Shown in pieces: positions 9,969-52,367 of a stretch of DNA of 64,000 nt; within the stretch, counting starts at the first letter, position 1; every line of letters begins with the position of its first letter. The position numbers and the translations under genes were made by a program. Source of the stretch: Hymenobacter cheonanensis. Its GTDB lineage: Bacteria > Bacteroidota > Bacteroidia > Cytophagales > Hymenobacteraceae. Below the pieces are notes generated by a model that ran no database searches, had not been told where the DNA came from, and saw only the letters and a list, made by a program, of their open reading frames with translations. The stretch covers positions 186,001-250,000 of the forward strand of contig NZ_JAUQSW010000006.1 in the NCBI RefSeq assembly GCF_030581075.1, written 5' to 3'.

Positions 9969-10430
9969 ATGGAAGAAGTTGATTTTCTAGTTGCAGAGCT
10001 TCGCAGGTTTTCACCCGACATTGCTGAGTTAGGAACAGCAGTCAATTCACAGCTAGTTACTCAATTTGAACGCGAGCATGATTTCGTGTTACCTAATGAC
10101 TACAAGCTCACTATCGCTCAGATAAACGGCTTTAGCGTCATGGGAGCCGAAGTTTATGGTCTTCATGGCAAGACTTCGTCCCCTTCGCTGGAAAGTGTTT
10201 ATCAACGAGAGCATACTGACGTTTTCTATCCTCAGCCCTCTTATCTGATTCCATTTAGTGGCGATGGCGGCGGTAATTTTTATTGCTTTGATACTCGTTT
10301 TGAAAGCGCTGACGAACAGTCAAGCCCAGTCGTCTTTTGGGTTTCAAACTATCCCTATACAGAGGATGACCCGCCGGTTATTACTAATGACAGCTTTCTA
10401 GATTTTGTCAGGGAAGTAATTATCGGTTGA
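9969..10430 (+). CDS. SMI1/KNR4 (SUKH) family protein
   Basis: 153 residues. The pattern of an N-terminal helix, FEREHDFVLPNDYKLTIAQINGF, then a hydrophobic core with LIPFSGDGGGNFYCFDTR, fits the SUKH superfamily; the IPF...GDGGGNFYCFD block is its most conserved segment. In bacteria these proteins are mostly immunity proteins for polymorphic nuclease or deaminase toxins, but many are orphans. I see no toxin gene next to it. The coding sequence is clearly poorer in G+C than its neighbours and uses A/T-ending codons, consistent with recent transfer. Start at ATG 9969, 54 bp after accC. Confidence 0.82.
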   Translation: MEEVDFLVAELRRFSPDIAELGTAVNSQLVTQFEREHDFVLPNDYKLTIAQINGFSVMGAEVYGLHGKTSSPSLESVYQREHTDVFYPQPSYLIPFSGDGGGNFYCFDTRFESADEQSSPVVFWVSNYPYTEDDPPVITNDSFLDFVREVIIG

Positions 10431-11398: not shown

Positions 11399-12460
11399 CT
11401 ATTCGCCGGCGCCCTGCTGCGACGACTCGCGCACGAACAGCTCGGGCTGGAGCACCACCTGGCGCTGCATAAAAGGCGCATCGGGCGCGGCGGCCAGCTC
11501 CAAAAACAGGCGCACGGCGGCCTGGCCCATTTCCTCGCAGCGCTGGTCCACGGAGGTGAGGCGGGGCTCGGTGATGGCCGTGAAGCCCTCGTTGCTGAAG
11601 CCGGCCAGGGCAATATCCTGCGGTACCCGAATGCCCTGGGCCTTCAGCACCTGGAGCGCGCCGAGGATGGCCGAGTCGCCGGCCGCGAAGATGGCATCAA
11701 TCGGGTTGGGCAGGGCTAGCAGCTGGCGCGTGGCCTGGGCGCCGTCCTCGGTCGTCATGTCGGAGGTGATAATCAGTGCCTCCTCGGGGGCCAGGCCGTA
11801 GGCGGCCAGTGCGTCGAGGTAGCCCTGGCGGCGGTGCTGGTAAATATTGAGGTGCTGCGGGCCCGCCAGGTGGGCAATGCGGCGGCAGCCCTGCTCCAGC
11901 AGGTGGCGGGTGGCCTGAAAGGCGCCCTCGCGGTCGTTAAGCACCACCGAGTTTACCTGTTCGGTGGCCGGAATGCGGTCGAAGAACACCAGCGGCACGC
12001 CCCGGCCCCGCACCTTATCAAAATGGTGATAATCCTGAGTGTTGCGGGCCAGCGACACGAGCACGCCCGCCACCTGGGCGTTGAGCAGCGTCTCCACGTT
12101 GCGGCGCTCGAGCTGCACGTCTTCGTGCGACTGGCACACGATGACGCTGAAGCCGGCCTTGCTGGCCGCCGTTTCGATGCCCTGAATGACGGACGGAAAA
12201 AACTTGCCCTCGATGTAAGGCACCACCACGCCCAGCAGCCGGCTCTGGCCTTTGCGCAGGGCGGCGGCCAGGTGGTTGGGCTGGTAATTAAGCTTTTTGG
12301 CTAGCTTGAGCACGCGCTGCTTGGTGGCCGCCCCAATGCTGTGGTGGTCGCTGAGCGCGCGCGAAATAGTCGTCATCGATACGCCCAGCTCGCGGGCCAG
12401 GTCGGCCATCGAAACGGCGGGTGGGGTAGCGCCGGGCGCCGGCTTTTTAGGGGAACTCAT
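11399..12460 (-). CDS. LacI-family transcriptional regulator
   Basis: 353 residues. An N-terminal extension of about 15 residues precedes the helix-turn-helix (SMADLARELGVSMTTISRAL) and the hinge helix (NYQPNHLAAALRKG) with the leucine that inserts into the minor groove at a central CpG. A periplasmic-binding-protein-like effector domain follows (LLGVVVPYIEGKFFPSVIQGIE, VPLVFFDRIP, IDAIFAAGDSAILGALQVL, IALAGFSNEGFTAITEPRLTSVDQ). Such regulators usually sense sugars or related metabolites. There is no adjacent transport or catabolic operon to suggest the ligand. The palindrome CCGCAAACGTTTGCGG at 50657-50672 in front of pckA is of the type this family binds, but the pairing is inference. Confidence 0.92.
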   Translation of the reverse strand: MSSPKKPAPGATPPAVSMADLARELGVSMTTISRALSDHHSIGAATKQRVLKLAKKLNYQPNHLAAALRKGQSRLLGVVVPYIEGKFFPSVIQGIETAASKAGFSVIVCQSHEDVQLERRNVETLLNAQVAGVLVSLARNTQDYHHFDKVRGRGVPLVFFDRIPATEQVNSVVLNDREGAFQATRHLLEQGCRRIAHLAGPQHLNIYQHRRQGYLDALAAYGLAPEEALIITSDMTTEDGAQATRQLLALPNPIDAIFAAGDSAILGALQVLKAQGIRVPQDIALAGFSNEGFTAITEPRLTSVDQRCEEMGQAAVRLFLELAAAPDAPFMQRQVVLQPELFVRESSQQGAGE

Positions 12461-12639
12461 GCGAATACTAACCGCCAGCTTCTACCAAAAAAGGCAGCTG
12501 GCCTCCCTACAAATTTAGGACGGCTTTCGGCAATCCAATTCCGGCCCGGCGCGGGTGGCGGCCCCGCCCCCGCCCGCCCGGCAGCCTTGGTAGCTGGCCT
12601 CCTCCCTATATTGCCGCCGTTCCTTAACGCCCGCCCCCG

Positions 12640-13167
12640 ATGCTTAACCTTCTTTGCAGCGCCCTAGCCCTGGCAACCTGGGGCGCGGCCCCGGCCGCCG
12701 CGCCCACGGGCCAAATCGACTTCAGCAAGCTGCGGCTGAATCAGTTGGCCTTCACTTCGAGCCGTAGCCAAGTGCAGCAGCGCCTGGGCCAGCCCCGGGC
12801 CGTGGTGGCGCCCCACTACGAGTGCGGCGCTTATTCGAGCCAAGAGCAGGGGCAGAAGTTTTACCAGCTGCGCTACCCGCACGCCCGGTTTATTGGCAAC
12901 AATAAAGTAGGCTATGCCATTCAGTACGTGTATTTTGTTCCGAAAGGCCCGGCGCTGACGTATGGCCGCCACGCGCTCAGCGACCGCACTACGGTGGCCG
13001 ACTTGCAGCGCCTCTTCGGCCCCGGCACCCACCCCGAGAAGATTAAAACTGCCGAGATGCCCCAGGGCCAGGAAGCCGTATCCGTCCATTCCGACCACGA
13101 CGACGGCGCCATTTTCTGGTTCAGCCACGGCCGGCTCACCAAGTTTGAGTACTGGACGCCCTGCTAG
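12640..13167 (+). CDS. Secreted protein of unknown function
   Basis: 175 residues with a signal peptide (MLNLLCSALALATWGAAPAAA). The mature part begins GQIDFSKLRLNQLAFTSSRSQVQQRLGQP, a pattern like the small SmpA/OmlA or DUF-type periplasmic domains in which a helix is followed by G-x-P. It contains two cysteines (YECGAY and the C-terminal TPC) that could form a disulfide. Nothing in the surroundings gives a role; it sits between a convergent-side LacI gene and mrp. Codon use matches the genome. Confidence 0.65.
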   Translation: MLNLLCSALALATWGAAPAAAPTGQIDFSKLRLNQLAFTSSRSQVQQRLGQPRAVVAPHYECGAYSSQEQGQKFYQLRYPHARFIGNNKVGYAIQYVYFVPKGPALTYGRHALSDRTTVADLQRLFGPGTHPEKIKTAEMPQGQEAVSVHSDHDDGAIFWFSHGRLTKFEYWTPC

Positions 13168-48815: not shown

Positions 48816-50390
48816 TTAAGCCTGCGGAGCGGGAGCAGGATAATTGCGGGCATCCATCATCTTAGCCAGGCGGCCGCTGATGAGAAATAGGATGCCAGCG
48901 GCCACCGCGGCCGATACGACAAACACCATGAAGAAATCGTAGAGATTGGTGATGTGGAACCCTAGCACAGTGGGCGCGGGTGCCGTCGATTTAGGGTCGG
49001 GGTAGAGGCTGCTCATGTAGCCGGCCAGGTAGTTGGCGGCGGCATTGGCCAGAAACCAGACGGCCATCAGTAAGGAGGCAAACTTGGCCGGGGCCAGCTT
49101 ATTTACCAGCGACAAGCCAATGGGCGACAGGCAAAGCTCGCCGGCCGAGTGCAGGAAATAGAGCGCTACCAGGAAAAACATGCTCACCTTAACGCCGGGC
49201 TGCAGGTTGTGCACCCCGAAGCACATCACGAGGTAGCCGGCGGCCAGCAAGGCTAGTCCCATTGCCATCTTAACGGGCGAAGCGGGCTCGGCGCCGCGCT
49301 TGCCCAGGGCCGTCCAGACCATGGCCATGAGCGGCGCGCCGGCCACTACGAAAATAGCATTCAGGTTTTGGAAGATGCTGGCGGGCAGCGTAATACCGAA
49401 AATGGTGCGGTCCATCTGCTCATCGGCGAAGAAGGTGAGCGAGGCGGGCGCCTGCTCGAACGCCGCCCAGAAGAAGACCACGAAGAAGGATACGATGAAG
49501 ATGACCATAATGCCCTGTACATCGGCGCCGCTCAGTGACTTATCGCTGAAAATCATATAGATAATGGCGACCAGCGCAATACCCAGCAGCGGCGCAATAG
49601 TGGGAAACATGGCCGAATCGAGCCACAAAATGCCCAGTACCAGGGCTAGCAATACCGGCAGCAGCGCATAAACTCCCTTTACGCCGCCCGAGTGCACCGG
49701 CGTCAGGCCCACCTGCTCGCCTTCGGGCGTGTGCAGGTATTTGCCCTTGCCCCAGTTGAAAACGGCCGTACCGAGCAGCATGGCGATGCCACAGGCCAGG
49801 AAGGCCCAACGGAAATCGCCGGGGTGCCCGGTATCGCCGATAAGGCTGGTAATGGTGTTGCCGATAAATGAGCCCAGGTTGATACCCATGTAAAAGATGG
49901 TGTAGGCAGCATCCTTGCGCGTATCGGTGGGCGAGTAGAGCGAGCCGACCATGCTCGAAATATTGGGCTTGAAGAAGCCATTGCCCACAATCATGGTGCC
50001 CAAGCCCGCATAGAGCAGCCAGTGGCTAAGCTGGTGAGTGCTGGCGGGCCCGTAGTTGCTGGCCGAAAAGAAGAGCGTAAACTGCCCGATGGCCATCAGC
50101 AGGCCACCCACCGTAATGGAGCGCCGGTTGCCCCAGTAACGGTCGGAAATAAAGCCCCCGATGAGCGGCGTGAGGTACACCAGGCTTGTGTAGCCACCGT
50201 AGAACTTCGACGCGAACGCCTTGTCCATCATCATGGCCTTGGTAAGGAACAGCACCAGCACGGCGCGCATGCCGTAGTAGCTGAAGCGTTCCCACATCTC
50301 GGTGGCAAACAAGAGGTAAAGGCCGCGCGGGTGGCTGCCCGAGGCCGTTTGGGGCGGTTGCGGGCGCAGGCTGGCGGTAGCAGGTTGCAT
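48816..50390 (-). CDS. POT-family peptide:H+ symporter
   Basis: 524 residues. The proton-coupling motif ExxERFxYYG is present as EMWERFSYYGMRAVLVLFLT. GGFISDRYWGNRRSITVGG follows, then the helix 4-5 region VGNGFFKPNISSMVGSLY, which is diagnostic of the PTR2/POT family. Fourteen hydrophobic segments are visible. It imports di- and tripeptides across the inner membrane. Start at ATG 50390. It shares a 357-bp divergent region with pckA. Confidence 0.93.
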   Translation of the reverse strand: MQPATASLRPQPPQTASGSHPRGLYLLFATEMWERFSYYGMRAVLVLFLTKAMMMDKAFASKFYGGYTSLVYLTPLIGGFISDRYWGNRRSITVGGLLMAIGQFTLFFSASNYGPASTHQLSHWLLYAGLGTMIVGNGFFKPNISSMVGSLYSPTDTRKDAAYTIFYMGINLGSFIGNTITSLIGDTGHPGDFRWAFLACGIAMLLGTAVFNWGKGKYLHTPEGEQVGLTPVHSGGVKGVYALLPVLLALVLGILWLDSAMFPTIAPLLGIALVAIIYMIFSDKSLSGADVQGIMVIFIVSFFVVFFWAAFEQAPASLTFFADEQMDRTIFGITLPASIFQNLNAIFVVAGAPLMAMVWTALGKRGAEPASPVKMAMGLALLAAGYLVMCFGVHNLQPGVKVSMFFLVALYFLHSAGELCLSPIGLSLVNKLAPAKFASLLMAVWFLANAAANYLAGYMSSLYPDPKSTAPAPTVLGFHITNLYDFFMVFVVSAAVAAGILFLISGRLAKMMDARNYPAPAPQA

Positions 50391-50656: not shown

Positions 50657-50672
50657 CCGCAAACGTTTGCGG
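50657..50672. promoter_or_regulatory. LacI/PurR-type operator upstream of pckA
   Basis: CCGCAAACGTTTGCGG is a perfect 16-bp palindrome with a central CpG. Its core GCAAACGTTTGC is the same as the PurR consensus and close to CcpA/LacI-family sites. It ends 21 bp before the pckA -7 element, where it could block RNA polymerase. Confidence 0.65.
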
Positions 50673-50693
50673 CCGAAATTTCCGCGCCTGAAC

Positions 50694-50701
50694 TACCTTT
50701 G
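50694..50701 (+). promoter_or_regulatory. TAnnTTTG promoter element for pckA
   Basis: TACCTTTG, 46 nt before the ATG at 50748. A TTTG at 50666-50669 inside the palindrome is a candidate upstream element, but the 24-nt spacing is longer than usual. Confidence 0.6.
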
Positions 50702-50747
50702 TGGCACGATTTCACTCTCCTCCCACCCATTTTTTCGTTCTTTTTAC

Positions 50748-52367
50748 ATGGCAGACCAAAAAGCTGTCGCTACCCGCCTGGCCTCGCTAGGCTTCCCGCA
50801 GGCCCCCACCCTCGCCCACCTCAACCTACCGCCGGCCGCCCTGGTCGAGCATGCGTTGCGGCGGGGTGAAGGCACACTCACCGACACCGGCGCGCTCATG
50901 GCCGACACCGGCGCCTTCACGGGCCGCTCGCCCAAAGACCGCTTCGTAGTGCGCGATGCCAACACCGAAGACAGCGTGTGGTGGGGCGACATCAACATTG
51001 CCTTCGACCCGGCCAAGTTTGAGCAGCTGCACCAGAAAATGGTGGCTTACCTCGCCGACAAGGAAATTTTTGTGCGCGATGCCTACGCCGGGGCGCACCC
51101 CGCTACCCAGCTCAAGCTGCGCGTGGTAAACGAATTGGCTTGGCACAACCTGTTCTGCTACAACATGTTTCTGCGCCCCGCTACTGGCGCAGACACTTCT
51201 TGGATGCCCGACTTCAGCATCATCTGCGCCCCCGGCTTCGAGGCCGACCCTAGCGTGGATGGCACTCGCCAGAAGAACTTCGCCATCATCGACTTTACCC
51301 GCAAGCTCATCCTCATTGGCGGCACGGGCTACGCGGGCGAGATGAAAAAGGGCATTTTTGGGGTGCTCAATTACCTGCTGCCCCACCAGCACGATACCCT
51401 GTCCATGCACTGCTCGGCCAACGTGGGCGAGGCCGGCGACACGGCTATTTTCTTTGGCCTTTCGGGCACGGGCAAAACGACGCTCTCTACCGACCCCAAC
51501 CGCGGCCTTATCGGTGATGATGAGCACGGCTGGCTGCCCGGCGAGGGCGGTATTTTCAACTTTGAGGGCGGCTGCTACGCCAAGGTCATCGACCTGTCGG
51601 CTACTAAGGAGCCCGAAATCTGGAATGCCATTCGCTTCGGCTCCATTGTCGAAAACACGCGCTTTGTGCCCGGCACCCACACCGTAGACTACGCCAACAA
51701 GAGCGTGACCGAAAACACGCGCACGGCCTATCCCATCAGCTTCATTCCCAATGCAATAGAGCCTTCGGTGGCGGGCGCGCCGAAAAATATTTTCTTCCTC
51801 ACGGCCGATGCCTTTGGGGTGTTGCCACCCATCAGCCGGCTCGATAAGAGCCACGCCATGTACCACTTCATGTCGGGCTACACGGCTAAGGTAGCCGGCA
51901 CCGAGATGGGCATTACGGAGCCGCAAACTACGTTTTCGGCCTGCTTCGGCCAGGTCTTTCTGCCCCTGCACCCTACGCGCTACGCCGAGATGCTAGGCCG
52001 CCAGCTGGAGGAAAACCCGGAAATAAACGTCTGGCTCATCAATACCGGCTGGACGGGCGGCGCCTACGGCACCGGCCACCGCATGAAGCTGAGTTACACC
52101 CGCACCATGATTACGGCTGCCCTGTCGGGCGTGCTCAGCGAGGTGCAGTTCAGGACGCACCCGGTTTTCGGGGTGGCCGTGCCCGGCGCCGTGCCCGGCG
52201 TGCCCGCCGAAATTCTGGACCCGCGCAATACCTGGGCTGACAAAGAAGCCTACGACCGCACGGCCGCGAGCCTGGCCGAAAAATTCGTGAAAAACTTTGA
52301 GAAGTACGCCGAGTATGCCACGGCCGACCTGCTGGCCGGCGCCCCCCGCCTGGCAGTGGAGGCCTAG
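50748..52367 (+). CDS. pckA: Phosphoenolpyruvate carboxykinase (ATP)
   Basis: 539 residues from ATG 50748. It converts oxaloacetate and ATP to PEP, the entry step of gluconeogenesis. Substrate and metal residues lie in GAFTGRSPKDRFVV, GTGYAGEMKKGIFGVLNYLLP and MHCSANVG; the kinase-1a P-loop is GLSGTGKTTLS, followed by DDEHGWLPGEGGIFNFEGGCYAKVIDLS. An in-frame extension to 50667 overlaps the promoter and is excluded. A perfect operator-like palindrome upstream suggests repression by a LacI-type regulator. A 16-bp hairpin terminator follows. Confidence 0.96.
   Translation: MADQKAVATRLASLGFPQAPTLAHLNLPPAALVEHALRRGEGTLTDTGALMADTGAFTGRSPKDRFVVRDANTEDSVWWGDINIAFDPAKFEQLHQKMVAYLADKEIFVRDAYAGAHPATQLKLRVVNELAWHNLFCYNMFLRPATGADTSWMPDFSIICAPGFEADPSVDGTRQKNFAIIDFTRKLILIGGTGYAGEMKKGIFGVLNYLLPHQHDTLSMHCSANVGEAGDTAIFFGLSGTGKTTLSTDPNRGLIGDDEHGWLPGEGGIFNFEGGCYAKVIDLSATKEPEIWNAIRFGSIVENTRFVPGTHTVDYANKSVTENTRTAYPISFIPNAIEPSVAGAPKNIFFLTADAFGVLPPISRLDKSHAMYHFMSGYTAKVAGTEMGITEPQTTFSACFGQVFLPLHPTRYAEMLGRQLEENPEINVWLINTGWTGGAYGTGHRMKLSYTRTMITAALSGVLSEVQFRTHPVFGVAVPGAVPGVPAEILDPRNTWADKEAYDRTAASLAEKFVKNFEKYAEYATADLLAGAPRLAVEA

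Follow-up and report, generated by a model that had tools for sequence, protein, structure and literature searches.

A putative LacI-type operator in the pckA promoter of Hymenobacter may belong to a small regulon joining starch breakdown to central metabolism

Introduction

Global carbon control in the Bacteroidota has been described mainly for the Crp-like regulator BT4338 (Cur) of gut Bacteroides. The closest described counterparts of the locus analysed here are LacI-family regulators. In enterobacteria, Cra (FruR) activates pckA, is known to act on icd and is displaced by sugar catabolites, as set out in the available text of PMC3146397 and PMC4052901. The same portion of PMC4052901 presents PckR of the Rhizobiales, a LacI-family protein predicted to activate pckA and TCA genes and encoded, in most genomes, at a distance from its targets. 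In Bifidobacterium breve, AraQ and MalR1 form a LacI-type pair acting on starch-sugar and central carbon genes; activation was deduced from sites lying upstream of the promoter in helical steps, and repression where sites overlap it (available sections of PMC6882875). Among the matches listed in the open-licence PMC literature, no title concerned LacI control of pckA in Bacteroidota, and pckA is missing from the main text of the Bacteroides thetaiotaomicron regulon study (PMC3878776).

Here we describe a palindrome in the pckA promoter of Hymenobacter cheonanensis that looks like the operator of a sugar-sensing LacI-type regulator. Its most likely reader is an orphan LacI paralogue encoded on contig C11 (the C11 LacI). 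As with Cra/FruR, a LacI-family protein may act on both pckA and icd, and putative operators stand at both promoters, 35-37 and 49 bp, respectively, before the promoter box. Unlike the Cra system, the targets here include amylases, and the C11 LacI scores 122.9 bits against the Cra profile NF008452, below its equivalog cut-off of 385. The Cra motif also differs from the core GCAAACGTTTGC. CcpA of Firmicutes is likewise a LacI-family carbon regulator, and the CcpA chains 2o20 and 3oqo are among the solved chains nearest to the C11 LacI by sequence; however, the latter scores 160.4 bits against TIGR01481 (equivalog cut-off 442.35), and the cre of CcpA differs from the present operator at the outer bases. 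The PurR operator of gammaproteobacteria holds nearly the same 14-mer as CGCAAACGTTTGCG, but the C11 LacI scores 165.7 bits against NF007979, below the equivalog cut-off of 501, and carbon genes, not purine genes, are targeted here. PckR, together with GapR and GluR, is similar by description, being a LacI-family regulator encoded apart from its targets and concerned with pckA and TCA genes; the available text of that study (PMC4052901) confines PckR to the Rhizobiales and names neither icd nor amylases for it. AraQ/MalR1 resemble the present case in LacI-type control of starch and central carbon genes from upstream sites, whereas their operator is given, in the available sections of PMC6882875, as CATTGTGAGC-GCTCACATCA and their central targets as bifid-shunt genes.

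Results

A palindrome in the pckA promoter

The window, that is, the whole 64-kb stretch of DNA analysed, contains the following features:

48816..50390, minus strand: POT-family oligopeptide:H+ symporter, divergent from pckA (TIGR00924 340 bits, cut-off 130)
50657..50672, no strand assigned: putative LacI-type operator CCGCAAACGTTTGCGG, centre 50664.5, about -41.5 from the predicted transcription start
50694..50701, plus strand: TACCTTTG, predicted sigma-A -7 box of pckA (TAnnTTTG); predicted transcription start near 50706
50748..52367, plus strand: pckA, ATP-dependent phosphoenolpyruvate carboxykinase, 539 aa (PF01293 716.8 bits; TIGR00224 710.2 bits, cut-off 590)
11399..12460, minus strand: LacI-family regulator (the window LacI), named by the initial annotation as the repressor; probably an arabinan/arabinose regulator (PF00356 51.5 bits; PF13377)

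CCGCAAACGTTTGCGG is its own reverse complement over 16 bp, and 21 bp separate it from TACCTTTG, which verified the perfect palindrome and its spacing as first annotated. It is an even palindrome with a central CpG, the symmetry that marks LacI/GalR operators. Such symmetry is weak evidence by itself, because the window holds three perfect 16-mer palindromes, CCGCAAACGTTTGCGG included. The nearest named relatives of this pckA are from Hymenobacter (87% for Hymenobacter sp. H14-R3).

In Flavobacterium psychrophilum the -7 box occupies -12 to -5 (available text of PMC9723704), and the predicted transcription start and the operator positions relative to it were derived from that position. On this basis the operator would extend from about -49 to -34 and cover the -33 region. 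The closest TTTG upstream of the -7 box falls within the operator, 24 bp off; the missing -33 motif counts little, because none was found in Flavobacterium johnsoniae either, according to the available part of PMC7366714. On the strand of the POT symporter, no TAnnTTnG box was found within the pckA/symporter intergenic region.

Conservation before pckA within and beyond the genus

Of 101 genomes of the genus, 98 had a pckA match, and 110 upstream regions were read from 97 genomes (pckA fragments of G097 being omitted from this count). The exact core was found in six of the 110 regions and the core within one mismatch in 11. In eight genomes of the nearest clade (G000, the source genome, G040, G057, G065, G096, G083, G005 and G020), the core stands at -89 to -91 from the pckA start codon and 35-37 bp before the -7 box; it is exact in the source genome and five near relatives and has one mismatch in the other two. 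Among the six genomes with a 36-bp spacing, mean pairwise identity is 95.6% for the 12-mer, compared with 44.8% for the spacer and 47.3% for the upstream flank. Thus, the pattern characteristic of LacI/GalR operators, with sites kept in orthologous promoters between divergent flanks, was found in the nearest clade only.

Across the 110 regions the site is missing from most other genomes of the genus. These include G034 and G043, although both have the window LacI and the C11 LacI; G050, also with both regulators, retains only a decayed site with two mismatches. In other clades, core forms with one or two mismatches sit 24, 29 or 20 bp before the box, and G028, G039 and G064 carry pckA sites in genomes without a close C11 orthologue. 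Conservation of the palindrome in relatives, on which the initial annotation had staked its proposal, therefore held in the nearest clade and not in most of the genus.

Beyond the genus, we searched 250 bp upstream of 65 non-Hymenobacter pckA loci and found the core within one mismatch in three and within two mismatches in six. The true motif ranked first on both counts among 60 palindromes of the same composition (means 0.07 and 0.43). The three one-mismatch loci (L043, L052 and L071) are from distant Bacteroidota; in L043 (Cytophagales) the core lies directly 3' of the -7 box, a repressor-type place, and for L052 and L071 no TAnnTTTG box was found. LacI relatives with 41-46% identity occurred in seven of eight genomes picked because they have a strong or weak pckA site, and in one of four picked for having none. 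Such scattered operators might reflect a LacI control of this gene that arose or was rewired several times. The record of L052 is titled as a Rickettsiales bacterium, a label that looks wrong, its pckA product being 64% identical to the Hymenobacter protein.

Further sites at carbon genes

The core GCAAACGTTTGC occurs seven times in the 5.36-Mb genome, as against no occurrence of the reversed control pattern, and the 14-mer CGCAAACGTTTGCG occurs three times. All seven core copies fall within or next to carbohydrate or central-carbon genes. Three of them (TGCAAACGTTTGCA) are next to LacI, GH43 and galM genes on contig C16. The remaining four precede pckA, icd (NADP isocitrate dehydrogenase), an alpha-amylase operon with two amylase genes, where the core lies between the operon and a divergent pirin gene, and a secreted amylase-family gene, whose 963-aa product combines an alpha-amylase domain with a T9SS tail. 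Near-copies at C15:139553 and C17:119919 precede a DUF3103 protein and a GH5 cellulase, respectively.

For icd, 50 upstream regions were read out of 81 genomes with a match; nine have the exact core and one has the core with one mismatch. In all ten, 49 bp separate the core from the box (TAnTATTG), with a spacer identity of 53%. The two-mismatch cores of G021 (-336) and G033 (-348) are off this conserved place, and no site was found at the icd locus of G028, which is cut by a contig end. For the secreted amylase, the 30 best-scoring of 100 genomes with a match were read, the split gene of G005 being omitted, and the core was present within one mismatch in 13, of which 12 belong to genomes with a C11 orthologue. 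Among the 13 C11 genomes read, the distance from the core to TATCTTAG is 67 bp in 12, with a spacer 42.5% identical (12 genomes); the exception, G071, has a 66-bp spacing, a core with two mismatches and the box TAACTTCG. For the alpha-amylase operon, 30 of 49 genomes with a match were read over 1,100 bp, and 13 have the core within one mismatch, counting against the proposed reading a G020 entry that represents the second gene of a tandem pair; none was found in G036, whose locus is cut by a contig end. At this target the site lies 177 bp before the closest -7-like box.

Across targets, identity is 93-98% for the 12-mer and 89-91% for the 16-mer, compared with 43-53% for the spacers. The pckA operator looks to be part of a small clade-specific regulon with icd, the secreted amylase and the alpha-amylase operon.

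The window LacI and an arabinan locus

The gene at 11399-12460 does encode a LacI-family regulator, as first annotated; its helix reads ELGVSMTTISRAL, with SMTTISRAL as the recognition helix. It scores 164.4 bits against the CcpA profile TIGR01481 (cut-off 442.35) and 173.7 bits against the PurR profile NF007979 (cut-off 501). Orthologues carry CACAAACGTTTGTG, CACAATCGTTTGTG or ACATAAACGATTGTGT upstream of their own genes. In the 50 upstream regions read from 73 orthologue genomes, CAAACGTTTG was found within one mismatch in 19, whereas mononucleotide shuffles give an expectation of 0.59. These operators mostly have A instead of G at the sixth base from the centre (CACAAACGTTTGTG); in G083 and G040, one half-site each is identical to that of the pckA operator (CGCAAAC).

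No operator of the orthologue type was found in the window LacI's own upstream region in the source genome. At 12461-12900, the stretch 5' of the gene, the operators of most of the closest relatives are missing and the alignment ends at the -7 box, as if rearranged. A SUKH/SMI1-KNR4 family protein is encoded nearby, at 9969-10430.

The genome has three exact CACAAWCGWTTGTG sites, all within a 34-kb stretch of contig C21 (159309, 179260 and 192708). This locus (156001-198000) encodes a SusC-like receptor, AbnA-like arabinan hydrolases (under the NCBIfam cut-off), an arabinofuranosidase, galM, an FGGY kinase and a transaldolase. Because of the orthologues' operators and these CACAAWCGWTTGTG sites, we read the window LacI as a probable arabinan/arabinose regulator, and the C21 locus is its likely target.

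Candidate readers of the pckA operator

The genome encodes six LacI-type regulators. Those on C6, C20 and C1 lie in glucuronoxylan, pectin and SusCD neighbourhoods, respectively, and that on C16 beside GH43 and galM genes; among the neighbours scanned, no sugar locus adjoins the window LacI or the C11 LacI, both of which resemble the C16 LacI. The C6, C20 and C1 proteins were rejected as readers, each having a neighbourhood of its own; for C6 and C1, moreover, a different palindrome lies close by (CGGAAACGTTTTCG, CGGAAACGTTTACG). The C16 LacI, with three copies of TGCAAACGTTTGCA at its locus, was rejected because G005, G020, G034, G043 and G065 keep icd sites with only two members of the group (E <= 1e-90), which we infer to be the window and C11 orthologues.

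The C11 LacI (G000:C11:349404-350435) scores 45.7 bits for PF00356 and 134.1 bits for PF13377, both over the cut-off. Its helix, SASTISRAL, shares the pattern SASTxSRAL with that of the C16 LacI (SASTVSRAL); six of the ten C11 proteins compared have SPSTISRAL. No operator of its own was found upstream of the C11 gene.

The exact core is present in 79 of the 101 genomes. At least one core occurs in 78 of the 91 genomes with a relative of these LacI proteins, while the ten genomes without one (E <= 1e-90) hold a single core in total, in G087, together with one control hit. The set of C11 orthologues (49 genomes) ends at a clear gap, from 461 to 425 bits; that of the window LacI (73 genomes) was delimited at about 486 bits or 65%, below which the scores show no clear break, leaving G085 (65%, 467 bits) outside.

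A C11 orthologue of at least 75% identity is present in 14 of the 101 genomes. With and without it, respectively, sites were found at icd in 10/13 and 0/37 genomes, at the secreted amylase in 12/13 and 1/17, and at the amylase operon in 9/13 and 4/17 (13/18 and 0/12 at a 70% cut). The corresponding counts for the window LacI at 80% identity or more are 10/18 and 0/32 for icd, 11/16 and 2/14 for the secreted amylase, and 9/13 and 4/17 for the amylase operon, equal to C11 at 75%. For pckA, the counts are 8/14 with and 3/83 without the C11 LacI (p = 2.8e-6), and 9/18 and 2/79 for the window LacI (p = 1.5e-6). All of these co-occurrence tests take related genomes as independent, and both paralogues are always present in the nearest clade. 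If two mismatches are allowed at icd, the window LacI (80%) does better, with 13/18 and 0/32 as against 11/13 and 2/37 for C11. At any identity, the window LacI shows no association for icd (p = 0.57) or the amylase operon (p = 0.2) and a weak one for pckA (p = 0.03), while the values for C11 are 0.02, 0.0033 and 0.0077, respectively.

Several genomes separate the two paralogues. G021, G033, G052 and G093 have a window-LacI orthologue of 86-87% identity but lack both a close C11 orthologue and the secreted-amylase site. In the secreted-amylase tree, from which G011 was omitted, the site-bearing clade (15 rows, 100/100) includes G021 and G033 (exact place 85/68); in both, the window LacI is 86% identical, the C11-like protein only 64-65%, and the site is missing. 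Conversely, a site accompanies a C11 orthologue, with no window-LacI match of at least 65%, in G082 (at the amylase operon) and in G036 (at the secreted amylase). These assemblies are 90 and 82% complete, respectively, and the best match in G036 (64%) is cut by a contig end.

Although these tests are not clear-cut, the pckA-type operator appears to track the C11 LacI somewhat better for icd and the amylases, though not for pckA. On this co-occurrence and on its recognition helix, we consider the C11 LacI, not the window LacI, the most likely reader of the pckA operator.

Discussion

These sequence comparisons leave part of the initial annotation standing and part not. Conservation in near relatives and the other copies at carbon genes fit its proposal that the pckA palindrome is a LacI-type operator; the regulator that it named and the repression that it predicted probably do not hold up. 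The 11399-12460 protein is probably the wrong reader, and repression of pckA is doubtful, because three sites upstream of the promoter at fixed distances suit an activator.

Our preferred reading, plausible yet somewhat short of probable, is that the palindrome is the operator of a small regulon joining starch breakdown to central metabolism, read by the C11 LacI as an activator that a sugar releases. Without the sugar signal, a dimer of this protein would bind upstream of the promoters at fixed distances and activate pckA and icd as well as the amylases; a sugar or sugar phosphate would free it from the DNA, and its release would lower gluconeogenesis and scavenging enzymes together. The operator, its conservation, its fixed spacing, the set of targets and the co-occurrence are read from the sequences, whereas in this scheme we infer the binding protein, the sign of regulation and the effector. 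The operator centres lie at -41.5 (pckA, source genome), -55.5 (icd) and -73.5 (secreted amylase), and activation is favoured over repression because these positions are fixed and, at icd and the secreted amylase, outside the core promoter. Activation would also match Cra, PckR and AraQ/MalR1.

It is possible, although unlikely, that the C11 LacI is instead an ordinary repressor at pckA that covers the -33 region and is freed by a starch-derived sugar. LacI-type regulators more typically act as repressors (available text of PMC6882875), and repression has some room at pckA because the site overlaps the -33 region; the sites 20-29 bp before the box in other clades, nearer to it than in the source genome, and directly after it in one distant genus (L043) would also suit a repressor. 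However, the fixed spacings of 49 bp at icd and 67 bp at the secreted amylase leave the -7/-33 region free, and a rise of pckA on the arrival of starch sugar would make little metabolic sense. A similarly low probability attaches to control of pckA by the window LacI, as a repressor or otherwise, perhaps sharing the site with the C11 LacI. All 11 genomes whose pckA site is within one mismatch of the core encode an orthologue of this protein, which at 80% identity predicts that site as well as C11 does; the sites upstream of its orthologues are close relatives of the pckA operator, down to the shared half-site of G083 and G040, and the overlap with the -33 region would suit this protein too. 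Yet its orthologues' operators mostly have A at the sixth base, the form that marks the arabinan locus, and the genomes that separate the two paralogues speak against it, both the four with close window-LacI orthologues and no secreted-amylase site and, with the reservation about G036, the two with sites and no such match. A chance or structural origin of the palindrome, with no regulator behind it, seems very improbable: palindromes of this length recur in the window and a near-copy at C11:851754 lies, by eye, in a terminator-like hairpin, but the pckA palindrome is kept in place and sequence across divergent promoters and is common to four functionally related targets.

Taking the preferred reading further, we tentatively suggest that Hymenobacter has its own Cra-like switch, in which a stand-alone LacI protein drawn from polysaccharide-utilisation paralogues would bind fixed upstream sites to activate pckA, icd and extracellular amylases, and would be turned off by a sugar signal, with LacI control of pckA having arisen or been rewired several times in the phylum. 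If true, a LacI regulator acting on pckA, icd and starch enzymes would represent a further, separately evolved solution to carbon control in the Bacteroidota. Four promoters and two candidate proteins are available for a direct bench test. The case also cautions that co-location alone is an unsafe basis for naming a regulator.

Additional observations

The operator near-copy at G000:C11:851754 (L107, about 1501) sits between convergent genes, where by eye it makes up the centre of a long terminator-like hairpin. The C6 LacI regulator (L019:6131-7309, G000:C6), encoded beside GH67 and uxuA genes, has about 45 extra N-terminal residues with two CxxC motifs (CVKC and CKSC), an arrangement resembling a zinc ribbon joined to a LacI protein. 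Finally, at G000:C17:383380 and 383401 (L427:5380 and 5401), two LacI-type operators stand 21 bp apart before the gene of a GH10 xylanase with a T9SS tail.
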